Assembly (NCBI GenBank): GCA_020722065.1
Contig: DYLK01000011.1
Location: 1-64,000, forward strand
DNA from: Melioribacter roseus
GTDB lineage: Bacteria > Bacteroidota > Ignavibacteria > Ignavibacteriales > Melioribacteraceae
Length of the DNA: 64,000 nt
Direction: 5' to 3'
Below, piece after piece: positions 12,770-48,567 of this stretch (its first letter is position 1; each line of letters begins with the position of its first letter). Both the position numbers and the translations under genes were made by a program. Under the pieces are notes generated by a model. It was not told the DNA's origin and ran no database searches. It worked only from the letters and a program-made list of their open reading frames with translations.

Positions 12770-13597
12770 TTATATCGAAATGATGAATCTTTTCATAAGT
12801 TTTTCCAATTTACCCTTTGAGATTTCGGCTGTTTCCATTACTTCAGTATGTGATAATTTATGCGGGGAAATCCCAGCAGCGTAATTTGTAATTAGCGAAA
12901 ATGCAACAACGTTTAATCCTAATTTTGCTGCAAAAACTGCTTCGTGTGCCGTTGACATTCCAACTGCGGAAAATCCCATCTTTTTAATCATCTGAATTTC
13001 AGCTTTTGTTTCATAACTTGGACCAGTATTAAAGAAATAACTCCCTTTTGGTAAATAAATATTTTCTTCAAGTGCAGAATCAATCATTTTCTGAGAAAGT
13101 TCTTTTGCTGGGAAATTAGTTCTAATTCTATTTATTTCGTCAAGTGAAACTTGTCCTAAAAAAGATGAAAGATATTTTTTTACATTAAATGTATTAAATG
13201 CTGAAATTAGCATAATATCTCCAGGTTTTAAATTATCATCAATTCCTCCGGCAGCATTTGTTAAAACTAAATTTTTCACTCCAATTTCATAAGAAATAAT
13301 TACAGGTAAAAGTGATTCAGAAATTGAATATCCTTCATAAAGATGAATTCTACCTTGAAATACTACAATTTTCTTCCCTTGATATTTACAAAAATGTATA
13401 AAACCTTTGTGTCCTTCAACTGTGGATTTGGGATAATTTGGTAAATCTGAAGTTGAAATTGATTTCACAATTTCAAGTTTTTCTGCAAAATCGCCCAAAC
13501 CGCTACCAAGAATTAATGCATTTTCAACCTCAAAAGGTTGGAATTCTTTAATAAAATCAAATATTTGTTGATATTTTTTAAATAAATTACGAACCAT
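12770..13597 (-). CDS. punA: Purine nucleoside phosphorylase (trimeric type)
   Basis: A 275-residue cytosolic enzyme that splits purine (deoxy)nucleosides with phosphate to the base plus (deoxy)ribose-1-phosphate. Motifs of the PNP/MTAP family: the phosphate loop LILGSGLGDF (about residues 28-37), FQGRIHLYEGY (about 79-89), VLTNAAGGI (about 110-118) with the base-site Ala/Asn, GPSYETKAEI, VGMSTAHEA (usually VGMSTVPE), and TNYAAGIS with the purine-binding Asn. It overlaps the end of the nupC gene by 11 bases and closes the nucleoside operon. The Val-Pro to Ala-His change in the VGMST motif is mild. Confidence 0.9.
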   Translation of the reverse strand: MVRNLFKKYQQIFDFIKEFQPFEVENALILGSGLGDFAEKLEIVKSISTSDLPNYPKSTVEGHKGFIHFCKYQGKKIVVFQGRIHLYEGYSISESLLPVIISYEIGVKNLVLTNAAGGIDDNLKPGDIMLISAFNTFNVKKYLSSFLGQVSLDEINRIRTNFPAKELSQKMIDSALEENIYLPKGSYFFNTGPSYETKAEIQMIKKMGFSAVGMSTAHEAVFAAKLGLNVVAFSLITNYAAGISPHKLSHTEVMETAEISKGKLEKLMKRFIISI

Positions 13598-14942
13598 AAA
13601 AAATTCCAGCTAAAGTTGCAGTAAGTAAAGTTGATAAAACACCACCTAAAACTGCTCTCATTCCTAACTGTGCAAAATCGCTTCTTCTGTCTGGGGCAAG
13701 TGGCGTTAAACCACCAATTTGAATTGCAATCGAACTAAAATTTGCAAATCCACATAAAGCATAAGTTGCCATCACAATACTTTTCTGCGATTTGAAAATC
13801 CCAGTTTGTATCAAATTTGATAAATCCATATACGAAATAAATTCATTGACCACGATTTTTGTCCCAATTAAACTTCCAAAATTCAACGCATCATTCCAAG
13901 GAACTCCAATTCCATAAGCAAGATATTGCAATATCAATCCAAAAATTAATTGTAAGTTAAGTGGTTTTCCATATTCAGTATATAAATATGGATTTAAGCC
14001 TGCAAAATCTCCAATCCAAACTAAAATAAAATTTAACATTGAAATTAATGCGATAAATGCAATAAGCATTGCCGCAACGTTAATTGCAAGTTGAACACCT
14101 TCTGAAGCACCAGAAGATGCAGCTTCTATAACATTTGAACCAGATTTTTCTACTTCAATTTTGACAAGACCTTTTGTAACCGGTTCTTCAGTCTCTGGAT
14201 AAATTATTTTGGAAAGGACCATTGCCGCTGGAGCAGCCATAACACTTGCCGATAATAATTGAGTAGCAAACATTGTTTGTGCCTGAACTAAATCAATTCC
14301 ATTTATTTGTGCATAAGAATATCCAAGCATTTGAATATAAGCCGCCATTACACTTCCGGCAATTGTTGCCATTCCGCCAGTCATAATCGTCAAAATTTCA
14401 CTTTTTGTCATTTTTTGAATAAATGGTTTAACGACTAATGGAGCTTCAGTTTGTCCGACAAATATATTTGCAGTGCAAGAAAGTGATTCAGCACCACTTG
14501 TACCAAGAATTTTCGCCATTCCTTTTGCCATCAAACTGACGACAACTTGCATAATTCCCAAATAATACAAAACACTCATTAATGAAGCAAAAAAGATAAT
14601 TATTGGCAAAACTTGAAATGCGAAAAACATTCCCATACTTCCTTCAGAACCTGGAGAAAATGCTAAATTGCCGAAGATGAATTTTGAACCTTCAGTTGTA
14701 AAATTCAGAATTAAAACAAAAGCACTACTAATCCATGAGAAAAGCATTTTTAACCAACCCAATGGAGCAAAAAAACTCCCTAATTCATCACCTTTTATGA
14801 TAAAAATGGCAAGCACAACTTGAAGTAACAAACCGTTTATAATCAAACGGATATTTACTTTTTTTTTGTTATTTGAGAATAAAAATGCAATTCCAAGAAT
14901 TAAAATTATACCGATAATTCCTCTAATTATTGATTCAATCAT
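13587..14942 (-). CDS. nupC: Concentrative nucleoside transporter (NupC/CNT family)
   Basis: An inner-membrane nucleoside:cation symporter of about 451 residues. The frame is open from 15014, but the proposed start ATG at 14942 follows a GGAAG Shine-Dalgarno site and gives the usual hydrophobic CNT N-terminus ([17 protein letters not shown]); it overlaps the end of tdk by 8 bases. CNT core motifs are present: [13 protein letters not shown] (hairpin 1), the [17 protein letters not shown] segment, [16 protein letters not shown], and [18 protein letters not shown] (hairpin 2), which is almost universal in CNTs. It probably feeds the cdd, tdk and punA enzymes encoded around it. Confidence 0.92.
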
Positions 14943-43084: not shown

Positions 43085-43669
43085 TTATTTAAATGTTGGT
43101 ATTAAAAATGAGCTCGTTTTCTGATATTCCACAGCTTCATTCCCAAATTTTTGAAGTATAATTTTATCTTCTAACTTTGCTCGCATAATTAGCAACGGTA
43201 ATTCAAGAAAAAGACTTGTTATTAAAACAAATACGTTGAGTAAAATTAACCCAGCTAAAATATTTGTAAGTAGCTGAAAAAGATATTGTGGATGGCGAAT
43301 AAACCTATAAATTCCTTCTCTATTAAGATTTTGATTTCTATATAAGATAACATCTGAAGAATAAAAATCGCCCATTTCTGTAATGATTGTTATTTGAAGC
43401 CAAGAAAAAAATATGTAAGGAAGTATTAATATTAATTGTAAAGATGTAATATTATAATAATTTAATTCAAATTGACCGACACCAAAAATGCCAAGTATTT
43501 GAAAGAGAATTGTTAGAGCTGCAATATTTAATGGTAGTTTTTGTAACCAACTTTTTGGTTTTATTTGAATTTGTGTTTTTTTACTTTTCAAAGCTAAATT
43601 TGCTTTAGAGAAATTTGCACTGAGTACTACAAAAAAAACTATTCCAAAAATTATATTAATAGGGTTCAT
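43085..43669 (-). CDS. Isoprenylcysteine/phospholipid methyltransferase-like membrane protein
   Basis: A 194-residue protein with about five membrane segments. The C-terminal part reads GIYRFIRHPQYLFQLLTNILAGLIL, then RAKLEDKIILQKFGNEAVEYQKTSSFLIP; this matches the RHPxY and ExxxxxxxxGxxYxxY motifs of ICMT/PEMT-type methyltransferases, which use S-adenosylmethionine. The substrate cannot be told. The 5' gap of 237 bases on the other side holds the sigma-54-like site of the pilin genes; downstream, an irregular stem-loop lies in the 108-base gap before the NifX-like gene. Confidence 0.7.
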   Translation of the reverse strand: MNPINIIFGIVFFVVLSANFSKANLALKSKKTQIQIKPKSWLQKLPLNIAALTILFQILGIFGVGQFELNYYNITSLQLILILPYIFFSWLQITIITEMGDFYSSDVILYRNQNLNREGIYRFIRHPQYLFQLLTNILAGLILLNVFVLITSLFLELPLLIMRAKLEDKIILQKFGNEAVEYQKTSSFLIPTFK

Positions 43670-43859: not shown

Positions 43860-43877
43860 TTTGCACGATTTTTGCGA
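43860..43877 (+). promoter_or_regulatory. Sigma-54-type (-24/-12) promoter
   Basis: The sequence TTTGCACGATTTTTGCGA matches the sigma-54 consensus YTGGCACGrNNNTTGCW at nearly every core position; the -24 element reads TG instead of GG. The gap between the TG (-24) and GC (-12) is exactly 10 bases, as required. The predicted start of transcription is near 43886, about 20 bases before the ATG of the first pilin-like gene. Sigma-54 control of pilin genes is known in other bacteria. No enhancer-binding protein gene is in the window. Confidence 0.65.
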
Positions 43878-43906
43878 GATGATATTCGATTATTTTCGAG
43901 AACAAA

Positions 43907-44392
43907 ATGAATACAGGACAAATGTTGATAACGATAGGTGCGATTGCAATAATGAGTATGATAATACTTAACATAAACCGTGGATTTCTTACAACTGGTT
44001 TTACTCTTGCAGAAACAAAATACGAAGTTTTAGCAGTTTCGCTCGCCACGTCTCTTTTAGAAGAAGCCACTGGCAAAGCATTCGATGAAAATACTGACAC
44101 AAATTCTGTATCAAGCTTAAGCGAATTATCAACTTATTTACGACCCGAAAATGAATCCTTTCCAAATTTTGATGACATTGACGATTATAATAATCTCAAC
44201 ATAACAAACAATTCTCTTCCGTCTGCAGAATTCAATATTCAGTGCAAAGTTGTTTATGTTTCTTCAGGGAATCCAAATTCAACTTCAGCAAGCAGAACTT
44301 GGCATAAAAAAATTTCAGTAACTGTATCAAGTCCATCAATGTCTGATACAGTAAGATTATCAACAATTTTTAGCTATTTTTATTTTAGGTGA
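43907..44392 (+). CDS. Pilin-like membrane-anchored protein, first of three
   Basis: A 161-residue protein whose N-terminus (MNTGQMLITIGAIAIMSMIILNINRG) is one hydrophobic helix followed by a Glu/Thr-rich stretch (TLAETKYEVLAVSLATSLLEEA), as in type IV pilins and pseudopilins. There is no standard basic prepilin leader: if cleavage after a Gly applies, it would be after MNTG. The rest is strand-rich with no enzymatic motif. The gene follows a sigma-54-like promoter and is 8 bases before the next pilin-like gene. A pilin call rests on helix shape and neighbours, not on a named family. Confidence 0.6.
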   Translation: MNTGQMLITIGAIAIMSMIILNINRGFLTTGFTLAETKYEVLAVSLATSLLEEATGKAFDENTDTNSVSSLSELSTYLRPENESFPNFDDIDDYNNLNITNNSLPSAEFNIQCKVVYVSSGNPNSTSASRTWHKKISVTVSSPSMSDTVRLSTIFSYFYFR

Positions 44393-44400
44393 GGTAGAAA

Positions 44401-44997
44401 ATGGGATTTAGCTCAATTATCGATATTATAGGCTCTTCAGTAATTGGGGGAATGCTTTTTATACTTCTTCTTCAGATAAATGAAGGAGCTGTGAAGAATA
44501 ATTATGAATTTATGGGAGAATTAACTGTTCAACAAAATCTTGTTGCAGTTGTAGATTTATTAGAACACGATTTTCGTAAAATTGGTTATTGCAAAAATTG
44601 GCAAGCGATTGTTGACCCTTCAAAATCCATTCTATTTGCTGATTCAAATTGTGTCTCTTTTCTTACTGATGATAATAATGATGGAATCCCAGATACAATG
44701 ACTTATTTTGTCGGCTCGGAAGATGAACTGAGCGGAACTCCAAATTTGCACGATAAAAAACTATATCGAGTAGTAAATGGTGATAGTCTTTCGGCTAATC
44801 TTGGTATTACTGATTTTTCATTAACATATTTCGATGCATTGGGAACGCAGTTAACATTCCCCATTTCAAATCCACATTTGATTTATGAAATGAAAATTGA
44901 CATCGAAGTACAAAATCCTGCAGCGTATGATAATTCATACAGTACTGCATTTTGGCAACAAATACGTTTAGCCGCAAGAAATCTAAAAAATAGGTGA
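44401..44997 (+). CDS. Pilin-like (PilW-type) protein, second of three
   Basis: A 198-residue protein starting MGFSSIIDIIGSSVIGGMLFILLLQI, a hydrophobic helix preceded by only two residues, MG, so any prepilin leader would be extremely short. The next segment, VQQNLVAVVDLLEHDFRKIGYC, resembles the region after the helix in PilW/GspJ-like minor pilins. It contains a DDNNDGIPDTMTYFVG segment, like thrombospondin type 3/calcium-binding loops. It is 8 bases after the first pilin-like gene and 4 before the third. No peptidase or secretin genes lie here; they would have to be elsewhere in the genome. Confidence 0.6.
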   Translation: MGFSSIIDIIGSSVIGGMLFILLLQINEGAVKNNYEFMGELTVQQNLVAVVDLLEHDFRKIGYCKNWQAIVDPSKSILFADSNCVSFLTDDNNDGIPDTMTYFVGSEDELSGTPNLHDKKLYRVVNGDSLSANLGITDFSLTYFDALGTQLTFPISNPHLIYEMKIDIEVQNPAAYDNSYSTAFWQQIRLAARNLKNR

Positions 44998-45001
44998 TAA
45001 T

Positions 45002-46390
45002 ATGGGCGGAAAAGCAGCTTTATTATTAGTATTAGGTTTTAGTCTAATTTTGATGGTTTTTGGTTACAATTTCAATAATTTAGGAATAACCTCTGTAGAT
45101 AATATTGATAATTATTATGTTGATACAAAAGCATACAATATTGCAGTAGCTGGAGCAAATCTTGCAGCAAACACAATTTTTATGGATAAAAATTGGGATG
45201 AAGGTTTTAGTGATATTGAATTCGATGATGGTATTCTGAATGTTTATGTCTCAAACAATTTAGATATGAGCGGAAAAACCATTATTTGTCATATTCCAGC
45301 AGGAAATCCTAACGCACGCCACACAATTTCAGTAAACACTGCATCTGTTGCTGCTCATCTTAGCCATGGAGATTATATTGGACCTTGTTCTGGTGATACA
45401 ATTGATTCTGAAATGGCAACAATAATTTCTGAAGGCACTTATCACGGAGTTACTAAAGTTGTAATTGTTGAACTTCGTCCAAGTTATTTTTCTAAATATG
45501 GTAATTTTTATACATCAATTTCTGCAATGCCAGCAACAGGCGACACATTCAACGGACCATTTCACACAAATGGGAAATTATATACATACGGGCAACCTGT
45601 TTTTTGGGGGAAAACCACATCAAGAACTGGATTAAAAAAATATGGTTCGCCAGCTGATCCTAAATTTTATGGTGGTTTTGAAGATGGAATTGATATTCCA
45701 CTTGAATTTGATACTTCGGGATTTCATTCTGCGGCAACATCTGGAGGAAAAGTATTTTATGATACAACACATACTGGACAAAAAGTTGAAGTAGAATTGG
45801 ACTTCCTTTCGAGCGGAAATATTACTTATAAACAAAAAATCGGGACTGGAAGTTGGTCAACATCTAAAACTATTGCAGGAAGTTCACTTGCTCCGAATGG
45901 AGTAATTTATATAGAACGTGGGAATGTTTACGTAAAAGGAACTATTAACGGAAAATATACAATCGCTGCCACAAAAAAATCAACTTCAGGCTGTGGAAAT
46001 GTCTATCAAACTGATAATATTCAATATCAAACAGATCCAATTAGTAACACAAATTCTGATGATATACTTGGACTTGTGGCTGAAGAAAATATTAGAATTC
46101 AAAATAATGCAAATACAATCGGAGATGATGTAATTACACACGCTTCAATGTTTGCATTAAACGGGAATATTGGTCCCGATGATGGATTAGTACATCAACC
46201 TACTTTACATAGTTGGAGAATTGTTGGGGGTTTAATTGCGAAAACTACACGTGTTACTGCTGATTATTCAGGCTCGACACCAACAAATGGTTTGAGATTT
46301 TATCACACTTACGATACACGCTTTATGAGGCTTGTTCCACCAAAATTTCCTCATACGGATAATTACGAAATAGTTTCTTGGTATGAATAA
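45002..46390 (+). CDS. Large PilX-like surface protein, third of three
   Basis: A 462-residue protein with an N-terminal helix (GGKAALLLVLGFSLILMVFGY) of the same kind as its two upstream neighbours. TIICHIPAGNPNARHTISV and AAHLSHGDYIGPC (residues about 97-125) form a small Cys-bracketed module that recurs in many exported proteins, where it is usually written CHIPPGNPxNxHTIxV...AHLxHGDxxGxC. A later part contains NGPFHTNGKLYTYGQPVFWGKTT and an asparagine-rich beta region, similar to pilus-tip or adhesin proteins. No catalytic motif is visible. It is the last gene of the trio and is followed by a 197-base gap with no gene. Confidence 0.6.
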   Translation: MGGKAALLLVLGFSLILMVFGYNFNNLGITSVDNIDNYYVDTKAYNIAVAGANLAANTIFMDKNWDEGFSDIEFDDGILNVYVSNNLDMSGKTIICHIPAGNPNARHTISVNTASVAAHLSHGDYIGPCSGDTIDSEMATIISEGTYHGVTKVVIVELRPSYFSKYGNFYTSISAMPATGDTFNGPFHTNGKLYTYGQPVFWGKTTSRTGLKKYGSPADPKFYGGFEDGIDIPLEFDTSGFHSAATSGGKVFYDTTHTGQKVEVELDFLSSGNITYKQKIGTGSWSTSKTIAGSSLAPNGVIYIERGNVYVKGTINGKYTIAATKKSTSGCGNVYQTDNIQYQTDPISNTNSDDILGLVAEENIRIQNNANTIGDDVITHASMFALNGNIGPDDGLVHQPTLHSWRIVGGLIAKTTRVTADYSGSTPTNGLRFYHTYDTRFMRLVPPKFPHTDNYEIVSWYE

Positions 46391-46587: not shown

Positions 46588-48567
46588 ATGCCACAAAATT
46601 TTATTGAAAAAATTGCTCAGAAATATTCACTTGGACTTTCAGAAAATCACAAAGTACATAGCGGTGAAATTGTTACAATTCAACCTTCTTTCGTAATGAC
46701 ACACGACAATACTGGTGCTGTAATTCCAAAATTTAAAAGCATCGGAGCTACAAAATTATTTAACCCACGACAAGTTGTACACACTCTCGACCACAATATT
46801 CAAGATAAATCAGAAAAGAATCTTGAGAAATACAAGAAAATTGAAGAGTTTTCAAATTTAGTTGGAGCCGATTTTTATCCCGCTGGTCGTGGAATTGGTC
46901 ATCAAATAATGGTTGAAGAAGGTTATGCTTTCCCTGGTACTTTGGTTGTCGCTTCTGATAGCCATTCGAATATGTACGGCGGATTAGGTGTTTTGGGAAC
47001 TCCAATTGTTCGTACCGATGCAGCTGCTATTTGGGCAACTGGCAAAACTTGGTGGGAAATTCCTCCAATTTCGAAAGTGGAATTAATCGGAAATCTTCGC
47101 CCAGGTGTAACTGGGAAAGATATAATTATAGTACTTTCTGGAGTTTTTAATAAAGATGAAGTATTGAATCACGCAATTGAATTCAGTGGCGATGGAATAA
47201 AAAATCTAACAATTGACCAAAGATTATCTATTGCAAATATGACAACTGAATGGGGAGCTTTGGCGGGGGTTTTCCCTATCGATAAAGTTACAATTGATTG
47301 GCTGAAAAATCGAGCTGAATTTTTGAGAAAGAGAGGGTTGCAAGGTGTAAAATCAGATATTGATTCTAAAAATGGAGAAAATCCAAGATTAAATTCTAAA
47401 TCGATTGAAATATTGGAGAATGAATTGATTTATCTTCGACCAGATGAAAATGCTTTTTATTCACAAGTTTTAACTTTAGATTTGTCATCAATTGAACCAT
47501 CAATTTCTGGTCCGCAAACTGTAAAAATAATGAATTCGGCAAGTGATTTAGAAAGTAAAGAAATCAAAATTAATAAAGCTTATCTTGTTTCTTGTGTTAA
47601 TAGCAGATTGGAAGATATTCAAGAAGCCGCTAAAATTCTTGAAAATAGAACAATTGCTAAAGGAGTTCAGTTTTATGTCGCTGCAGCTTCAAGCGAAGTT
47701 CAAGCAAAAGCAGAAAAATTAGGTTATTGGCAAACAATTGTGAAATCTGGTGCAACAATTTTGCCTCCAGGTTGTGGTCCTTGCATCGGTTTGGGAACAG
47801 GTTTGCTTGAAGATGGTGAAGTTGGAATTTCCGCGACAAACCGAAATTTTAAGGGAAGAATGGGTTCGCCAAATGCAGAGGCTTATCTTGCTTCGCCAGC
47901 AGTTGTTGCTGAATCTGCAATTCAAGGAAAAATCGCCTCACCTTTCAAATTATCAAAATCAGAAATTATTAAATCAATTACTCTAAATTCCAAGAAATCA
48001 ATTCAAACAGGAACAACTGAAATACTTGATGGATTCCCAGAAATTGTTGAAGGAAATATTCTTTTTTGCAATAAAGATAATATGAACACTGACGGAATTT
48101 ATCCTGGGAAATACACTTACATTGATGATTTTTCCCCCGAAGAGCAAGCAAAAGTAGTGATGGAAAACTACGATATGAAATTTGGTGAAATTGCTCAGAA
48201 AAATGATATTTTGGTAAGCGGATATAATTTCGGTACTGGAAGTTCACGAGAACAAGCTGCTACTGCATTAAAATATCGCGGAATTCAACTTGTTATTGCT
48301 GGCTCATTTTCGCAAACATACAAACGAAATGGCTTTAATAATGGCTATCTTTTGCTTGAACAAGAAGATTTACTAAAAGATTTACGCACAATTTTTTCAT
48401 CAAATAAGGAATTAACAATAAGAACAGAAAATAAAATTAAGATTGATTTTGTTAACTCAAAAATGATTTATGAAGGTAAAGAATATCAATTTATACCAAT
48501 AAGTTCAACAGCTCAAAGCATAATTGTCGAAGGCGGTTTAGAAAATTGGGTTAAGAATAGAATTTAA
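46588..48567 (+). CDS. Single-chain homoaconitase-like hydro-lyase (Lys4 type)
   Basis: A 659-residue Fe-S hydro-lyase of the aconitase superfamily with both large and small (swivel) domains in one chain. The N-terminal stretch has MTHDNTGAVIPKF, VVHTLDHNIQDKSEKNLEKY and FYPAGRGIGHQIMVEEGYAFPGTL, then SDSHSNMYGGLGVLGTPIVRTDAAAIWATGKTWW, which follows fungal homoaconitase (LYS4) rather than bacterial aconitase. Cluster Cys ligands are in YLVSCVNSR and PGCGPCIGLG. The swivel domain starts near FCNKDNMNTDGIYPGKY and has GYNFGTGSSREQAATALKYRGI. Homoaconitase belongs to the alpha-aminoadipate lysine route; other genes of that route are absent here. Confidence 0.8.
   Translation: MPQNFIEKIAQKYSLGLSENHKVHSGEIVTIQPSFVMTHDNTGAVIPKFKSIGATKLFNPRQVVHTLDHNIQDKSEKNLEKYKKIEEFSNLVGADFYPAGRGIGHQIMVEEGYAFPGTLVVASDSHSNMYGGLGVLGTPIVRTDAAAIWATGKTWWEIPPISKVELIGNLRPGVTGKDIIIVLSGVFNKDEVLNHAIEFSGDGIKNLTIDQRLSIANMTTEWGALAGVFPIDKVTIDWLKNRAEFLRKRGLQGVKSDIDSKNGENPRLNSKSIEILENELIYLRPDENAFYSQVLTLDLSSIEPSISGPQTVKIMNSASDLESKEIKINKAYLVSCVNSRLEDIQEAAKILENRTIAKGVQFYVAAASSEVQAKAEKLGYWQTIVKSGATILPPGCGPCIGLGTGLLEDGEVGISATNRNFKGRMGSPNAEAYLASPAVVAESAIQGKIASPFKLSKSEIIKSITLNSKKSIQTGTTEILDGFPEIVEGNILFCNKDNMNTDGIYPGKYTYIDDFSPEEQAKVVMENYDMKFGEIAQKNDILVSGYNFGTGSSREQAATALKYRGIQLVIAGSFSQTYKRNGFNNGYLLLEQEDLLKDLRTIFSSNKELTIRTENKIKIDFVNSKMIYEGKEYQFIPISSTAQSIIVEGGLENWVKNRI

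Follow-up and report, generated by a model that had tools for sequence, protein, structure and literature searches.

A question raised by a stretch of 64,000 nucleotides from Melioribacter roseus (assembly GCA_020722065.1, contig DYLK01000011.1, positions 1 to 64,000; hereafter 'the window', i.e. G000:C29 of a 2.38-Mb genome that is rated 100% complete and consists of 69 contigs) is how three tandem genes, g1, g2 and g3, can resemble pilin genes when their products carry almost nothing in front of the hydrophobic helix. Proteins of the pilin type are usually recognised, and their biogenesis explained, by way of a class III leader, a glutamate at mature position 5 (Glu5) and a prepilin peptidase. 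We are fairly confident that g1–g3 encode minor pilins and belong to a lineage of type IV pili that does without prepilin processing, its pilins being translated in mature form. The features in question are the following.

43861..43876, + strand: sigma-54-like −24/−12 element TTGCACG-ATTT-TTGCG (TTGCACG-N4-TTGCG), read from the sequence and recurring before g1 orthologues
43907..44392, + strand: g1, 161 amino acids, start MNTGQMLITIGA (MNTGQ...), leaderless minor-pilin-like (open reading frame (ORF) list and relatives)
44401..44997, + strand: g2, 198 amino acids, start MGFSSIIDIIGS (MGFSS...), leaderless minor-pilin-like (ORF list and relatives)
45002..46390, + strand: g3, 462 amino acids, start MGGKAALLLVLG (MGGKA...), leaderless minor-pilin-like with a large C-terminal part

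The three genes run in the same direction with gaps of only 8 (g1–g2) and 4 bases (g2–g3), and in the ORF translations the helix of each product begins after 2–4 residues. Relatives found by BLAST align from their own residue 1 in 22 of 25 g1, 24 of 25 g2 and 27 of 27 g3 ORFs. As far as these alignments go, the short N-termini of g1–g3 are conserved, and the description in the initial annotation of three genes with a helix after 2–4 residues is borne out by both the ORFs and the relatives. Positions M1, T3 and Q5 are invariant in an 18-row alignment of g1; the diverged g1 copies, which stand outside this alignment, lack Q5 (e.g. MPNQM, MQQTL).

A machine that could take up such subunits is encoded elsewhere in the same genome. 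On contig C46 (stretch L040), a cluster comprises two pilin-like genes that start MGNQQLLLIILG and MGQQQLLLIVLG (MGNQQ and MGQQQ) and both lie directly before PilC, as well as PilB, a second T2SSE ATPase and a secretin.

G000:C46:34513-35685 (L040:8892-10706): T2SSE assembly ATPase, E 2.3e-104
G000:C46:32884 (L040:7548-8891): T2SSF/PilC platform protein, E 6.6e-16
L040:11930-13456 and 13453-14346: two proteins in PilM/N/O positions, fitting by position and size, with no fitting Pfam family
L040:14330-15598: secretin, PF00263, E 1.8e-21
L040:15595-17100: response-regulator genes, after the secretin

Of the machine parts that the initial annotation had proposed to look for, PilB, PilC and the secretin are thus present, and a prepilin peptidase was not detected. 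The response regulators behind the secretin hint at signal control of the pilus.

The tie between the g1–g3 cassette and this machine can be read from co-occurrence and from gene order. In a sample of 197 genomes of the class Ignavibacteria, the g2 family occurs in 106 and T2SSF in 104, with both present in 103 and neither in 90, i.e. the two agree in 193 genomes; those that depart from this are G210 (T2SSF alone, E 4.8e-4) and G084, G132 and G162 (g2 alone). Canonical systems are included in the T2SSF figure, but each of the nine genomes in which a canonical T2SSF is strong also carries one of the longer type. Cassette-like genes are found, by eye, in 10 of 20 pil-cluster stretches. In L057 and L138 the cassette adjoins the pilins; L142 and L144, from two further families, have it between PilB and the second ATPase in the order pilin-PilC-PilB-g1-g2-g3-second ATPase, with second ATPases that are 55–56% identical to that of the window genome. 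Because the g2 family and T2SSF co-occur and the cassette adjoins or sits inside the cluster elsewhere, the window genes very probably encode accessory subunits of the PilB/PilC machine, most likely its minor-pilin cassette, encoded apart from the type IV pilus machine in this genome. The cluster in L142 (G127:C8, 9316-11463) also holds four major-pilin genes in tandem, three of which share their first 55 residues, and genome G092 yields 10 matches to the pilin model; tandem pilins may possibly provide a pilin repertoire or serve dosage.

The major pilins of these clusters begin M-G-QQQLLLIVLG and have neither a leader nor Glu5. A regular-expression search made without any demand for a short start gave 99 distinct 'QQ-pilins' in 58 genomes, of which 11 lie outside the class; in 99 of 99 an ATG, GTG or TTG stands directly before the Gly codon, with a further in-frame start upstream in four (L105, L111, L118 and the window genome's first pilin, L121). 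Among the 84 pilins of the ATG type, 68 have a Shine–Dalgarno-like tetramer 4–17 nt before the start, and all 84 are free of D, E, K and R in residues 1–24; M1, G2, Q4 and Q5 are invariant in an 18-row alignment of major pilins. Mis-called starts were considered as a cause of the short N-termini and rejected. A class III hydrophilic leader (6–26 residues ending in Gly) is absent from 99 of 99 QQ-pilins and from g1–g3 with their 2–4 residues, and at position 5 it is Gln rather than Glu that is invariant in the major-pilin and g1 alignments (the diverged g1 copies lying outside the latter).

The enzyme that would process a leader is likewise missing from view. The window genome has no match to Peptidase_A24 (PF01478) at E ≤ 0.001, nor at E ≤ 10, and A24 is undetected in 189 of the 197 class genomes; the eight that have it all carry T2SSF, and 95 of the 103 class genomes with both T2SSF and the g2 family show none. 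Across a phylum sample of 392 genomes, the leaderless major pilin (A1) occurs in 136, A24 in 46 and both in 15, leaving 121 A1-pilin genomes without detected A24, of which 67 lie outside the class. Probably, then, more than one class of this phylum harbours a type IV pilus lineage that has no prepilin peptidase, makes pilins that are born mature, carries Gln instead of Glu at residue 5 and lacks N-methylation by PilD.

Several observations weigh against this interpretation, and those on the peptidase itself also bear on the alternative that a prepilin peptidase exists and is either too diverged for PF01478 or hidden in assembly gaps. G130 and G059 have a canonical-type T2SSF and no A24 (the T2SSF frame of G059 is broken); therefore, either detection or the assemblies are imperfect. 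In G130 (L070, G130:C31), canonical prepilins (GFTVVELL, GFTLIESL) even stand beside a canonical PilC, a situation due to a gap, to decay or to a borrowed peptidase. In G103, a sub-threshold match (L160, G103:C1:2375971-2376240; E 0.32) has a GYGDV motif, its frame being interrupted by TGA, and is either a chance match or a decayed peptidase gene. Together with the distribution of the window genome over many contigs, G130 and G103 speak for a peptidase that was missed. However, six single-contig genomes with T2SSF (G012, G163, G046, G057, G060 and G103) have no A24 match at the cut-off even with matches listed up to E 10. There are seven sub-threshold matches; those that can be read are not A24-like (three are ORFs, which we take to be two hydroxylases and a transporter, and one more lies in the frame of that transporter), and two more show several stops. 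Moreover, nine class genomes have a canonical T2SSF that is strong (frames of 322–400 residues), and the same model does find A24 in seven of these, as it does in 12 of 14 control genomes. We therefore regard an overlooked prepilin peptidase as highly improbable.

A second group of contrary observations concerns the proteins' own N-termini. In the major pilin, g2 and g3, a Gly immediately precedes the helix and could mark a genuine site of cleavage, and the short start outside the class has been read in 11 of 77 genomes (all 11 MG-QQQ), the other 66 resting on a profile match. If an unrelated, unrecognised peptidase cut after the small residue that precedes the helix, i.e. after MG, MNTG or MGG, these proteins would be prepilins with ultra-short leaders. 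A Gly does indeed stand at this point in major pilins, most near relatives have it in g2 and g3 as well, and residue 4 of most g1 proteins is G, S or A, but the minor pilins of farther relatives have no such small-residue site (MQQTLL in g1; MTVMLD, MASLLD and MHVLWD in g2). A leader of two residues also offers little to recognise, the range given in a review being 6–26 residues (PMC4471445), and in ten stretches inspected by eye no added gene with multiple transmembrane segments is common to different families. Cleavage of this kind thus seems unlikely to us. Two stretches of a single family, L147 and L150, do share cytochrome-oxidase-like neighbours.

A third group concerns homology, for which the sequences offer thin evidence. 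The best matches of the major pilin in profile searches of the PDB are Geobacter PilA (geopilin) at E 0.1 and a PilE1 at E 0.35, beside a false match to dihydrofolate reductase at E 0.26; Pfam ComP_DUS is matched by 3 of 18 major pilins with a best E of 0.0012; and hhalign gives nothing significant when the major pilin is compared to canonical GspG-like pilins (C-terminal residues only, E 0.16) or g1 to GspI-like proteins (E 0.068). AlphaFold2 models of g2, alone and with one relative, reached pLDDT values of 41.5 and 39.7 and are unusable. Pilin homology rests mainly on gene context and anatomy, and because the geopilin alignments leave 1–3 residues' play we claim no particular helix register between leaderless and canonical pilins. 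In NCBIfam, the major pilin matched TIGR02596 (Verru_Chthon cassette protein D) in 2 of 18 members, with a best E of 0.00043, besides some stray families, and g3 had stray matches only; g2 and g1 matched nothing among PDB profiles, and no Pfam family reached its cut-off for g1, g2 or g3. Below the family cut-off, g3 shows similarity to DUF4900 (E ≤ 0.1 in all 20 members that were scanned, g3 itself among them; best E 2.9e-6). The protein g2 bears a weak resemblance to the phylum's canonical GspJ/PilW-like prepilins (hhalign E 0.0027, probability 11%).

With sequence homology this weak and no usable predicted fold, the MGQQQ proteins and g1–g3 might be other membrane proteins, e.g. parts of a static pseudopilus, a scaffold or a secretion system, rather than subunits of an extending pilus. 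Yet the MGQQQ genes adjoin PilC/PilB directly and occur as tandem copies, the cassette lies within the pilus gene order of L142 and L144, and the matches to type IV pilins, weak as they are, are repeated. We consider such a role improbable and retain the interpretation of all these proteins as pilins.

A last point of this kind is that the A24 present in 15 of the 136 A1-pilin genomes could act in trans. We considered whether it serves the leaderless pilus; by eye and regular expression, a canonical prepilin such as DEDGFSLTELLIVLAIIG lies near A24 in 14 of 17 A24 stretches (not in L183, L186 and L191), as well as in G034, G027 and G006. Counted per genome, A24 and A1 pilins occur together in 15, and in all of these but one, G418, a canonical GF[ST]L-type prepilin shares the stretch with an A24 (14 of 15). 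The assembly ATPases tell the two systems apart as well: in a maximum-likelihood tree of 34 sequences, picked from their clusters by motif regular expression (clusters missed by it being left out), 21 from leaderless clusters are split from 13 from canonical clusters by one branch with 100/100 support. Inside the leaderless side, the branching order broadly follows kinship; the tree is unrooted and does not give the ancestral state. Another stretch, L145 (G096:C5), has near its normal ATPase a second, very diverged PilB-like one at about 6208 (branch length 1.82).

How might a pilus be built from such proteins? In our model, translation would start about where a mature pilin begins, such that 1–4 residues precede the helix in major and minor pilins alike. 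The pilins would go straight into the membrane as N-in, C-out anchors, and PilB/PilC would draw them into the filament in the form in which they were made, with no cleavage needed for insertion, retention or delivery. Perhaps the only enzyme to act on the N-terminus would be methionine aminopeptidase, removing Met from the Met-Gly start of the major pilin; by the specificity of this enzyme, Met-Asn starts as in g1 would keep their Met. Counted from the start codon, Gln at residue 5 would stand where canonical mature pilins have Glu5, and, speculatively, might take over part of its role by hydrogen bonding. In Melioribacter-like bacteria, the cassette would be expressed from a sigma-54-type promoter. 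The initial annotation had left the choice between an unusual class of prepilin processing and a different surface appendage: the former seems nearer the truth, if in the stronger form that there is likely no prepilin processing, because the genome search detected no prepilin peptidase; the latter is not favoured because the machine is of the type IV pilus type.

The promoter itself was predicted from a 'near-perfect' −24/−12 element about 46 bases upstream of the genes. The position is right, as the element begins 46 bases before the ATG of g1, and the element does recur before orthologues, but 'near-perfect' is too strong a word, since only 10 of 12 positions match the sigma-54 consensus and −25 is T instead of G. 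In the window alone, sites with at most two mismatches are no more frequent than by chance (5 versus 4.52 expected), so that the single site carries no weight by itself. In the 120 nt upstream of 25 g1 genes (the window gene, 23 of the 25 BLAST matches, and L138), however, the best consensus match averages 8.72 of 12, compared to 6.95 in shuffled sequences (sd 0.13) and 6.90 in 111 control upstream regions drawn from the same loci, and a best match of at least 9 of 12 is found in 14 of 25 versus 5 of 111. The two BLAST matches left out are the diverged copies L054:3798 and L050:9619, which have no good element near their start. The fixed spacing GCAY-N5-TTG, a pattern chosen after looking, as the consensus test was not, occurs in 18 of 25 g1 upstream regions and 2 of 111 controls. 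These 18 elements comprise 7 with C, 6 with A and 5 with T at −12, and 11 with A, 4 with T and 3 with G at −25; because these two bases vary, the element is, judged as a motif, a loose sigma-54 site.

Neither of the findings named in the initial annotation as refuting it, a genome without rpoN or an element not conserved before orthologues, was encountered: besides the recurrence just described, rpoN lies at G000:C37:49905 and is present in 36 of 39 genomes searched (including this one), and PF00158, the sigma-54 activator domain, has 14 matches in the window genome, eight of them strong. It is rather doubtful that the element belongs to another promoter class, e.g. a Bacteroidota housekeeping promoter. 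Classical sigma-54 sites are tighter at −25 and −12 than the elements here, the window by itself shows no excess and 7 of 25 g1 upstream regions lack the element; against this stand the fixed spacing before orthologues, rpoN and the strong activator domains. Because the element recurs before orthologues and rpoN and the eight strong PF00158 activators are present, sigma-54 control of the cassette appears likely, and the switch-like regulation suggested in the initial annotation is plausible.

In the window, two genes flank the cassette:

43085-43669, divergent, upstream of g1: ICMT-like gene (Pfam)
46588-48567, downstream of g3: a gene that we take to be aconitase-like

A counterpart of g3 on a Melioribacter roseus contig is 62% identical. 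Four congeners (G001-G004) gave no g3 match (0 of 4; two are only 77% and 85% complete, and their pilins were not searched), and the cassette may thus have been lost within the genus of the window genome. In L031, L042, L043, L044, L046, L047, L049 and L054, second g3-like copies, some with a second g1 and g2, lie in one stretch with the first set, which suggests exchangeable minor-pilin sets. L147 and L150, from genomes outside the class, have two more g1/g2-like genes adjoining the cassette, again with very short N-termini (MERAQW/MDRSQW and MTWLG/MTGWL).

If pilins are indeed born mature here, leader cleavage and Glu5, both long held necessary, would be dispensable for a lineage that starts translation at the mature N-terminus. 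It would make two questions testable in a natural system, namely the purposes of leader cleavage and of Glu5, and we would expect it to add pili to genomes in which leader-based searches miss them. In the titles and abstracts of open-licence PMC articles, we recognised no report of leaderless type IV pilins beyond a remark on M. roseus taken up below.

Compared to type IVa pili and type II secretion systems, the system described here has the same T2SSF, T2SSE, second T2SSE ATPase, secretin, helix-first subunits and three-gene minor cassette, but no detected prepilin peptidase, no leader and no Glu5. According to the review, canonical prepilins have a leader of 6–26 residues that is cleaved after Gly by a dedicated peptidase, leader and peptidase are counted as shared features, Glu5 is almost invariable though often absent in archaea, and Glu5 mutants are unable to form homopolymeric pili (PMC4471445). 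Within the same phylum, the canonical T2SS-like clusters, i.e. Cytophaga hutchinsonii CHU_3191-3201 (PMC5553014) and stretches L176-L192, possess the same machine-gene classes; unlike the leaderless clusters, they mostly have A24 with GFSLTELL-type prepilins nearby, and their ATPases lie across the well-supported branch. MSHA prepilins have leaders. MSHA loci, too, come without a prepilin peptidase of their own, but there the enzyme is presumed to come from a different system in that genome (PMC6668835), whereas the searches of the window genome detected no A24. Finally, the paper on M. roseus reports pilA and pilD as missing and takes the pil set as probably incomplete. In our sample, from which the type strain is absent, the missing A24 is in contrast common to nearly the whole class, i.e. 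the 189 of 197 genomes given above, and a leaderless pilA-like gene stands beside pilC in related genomes; a pilus lineage without leader, Glu5 and peptidase could account for the reported lack of pilA and pilD in M. roseus.

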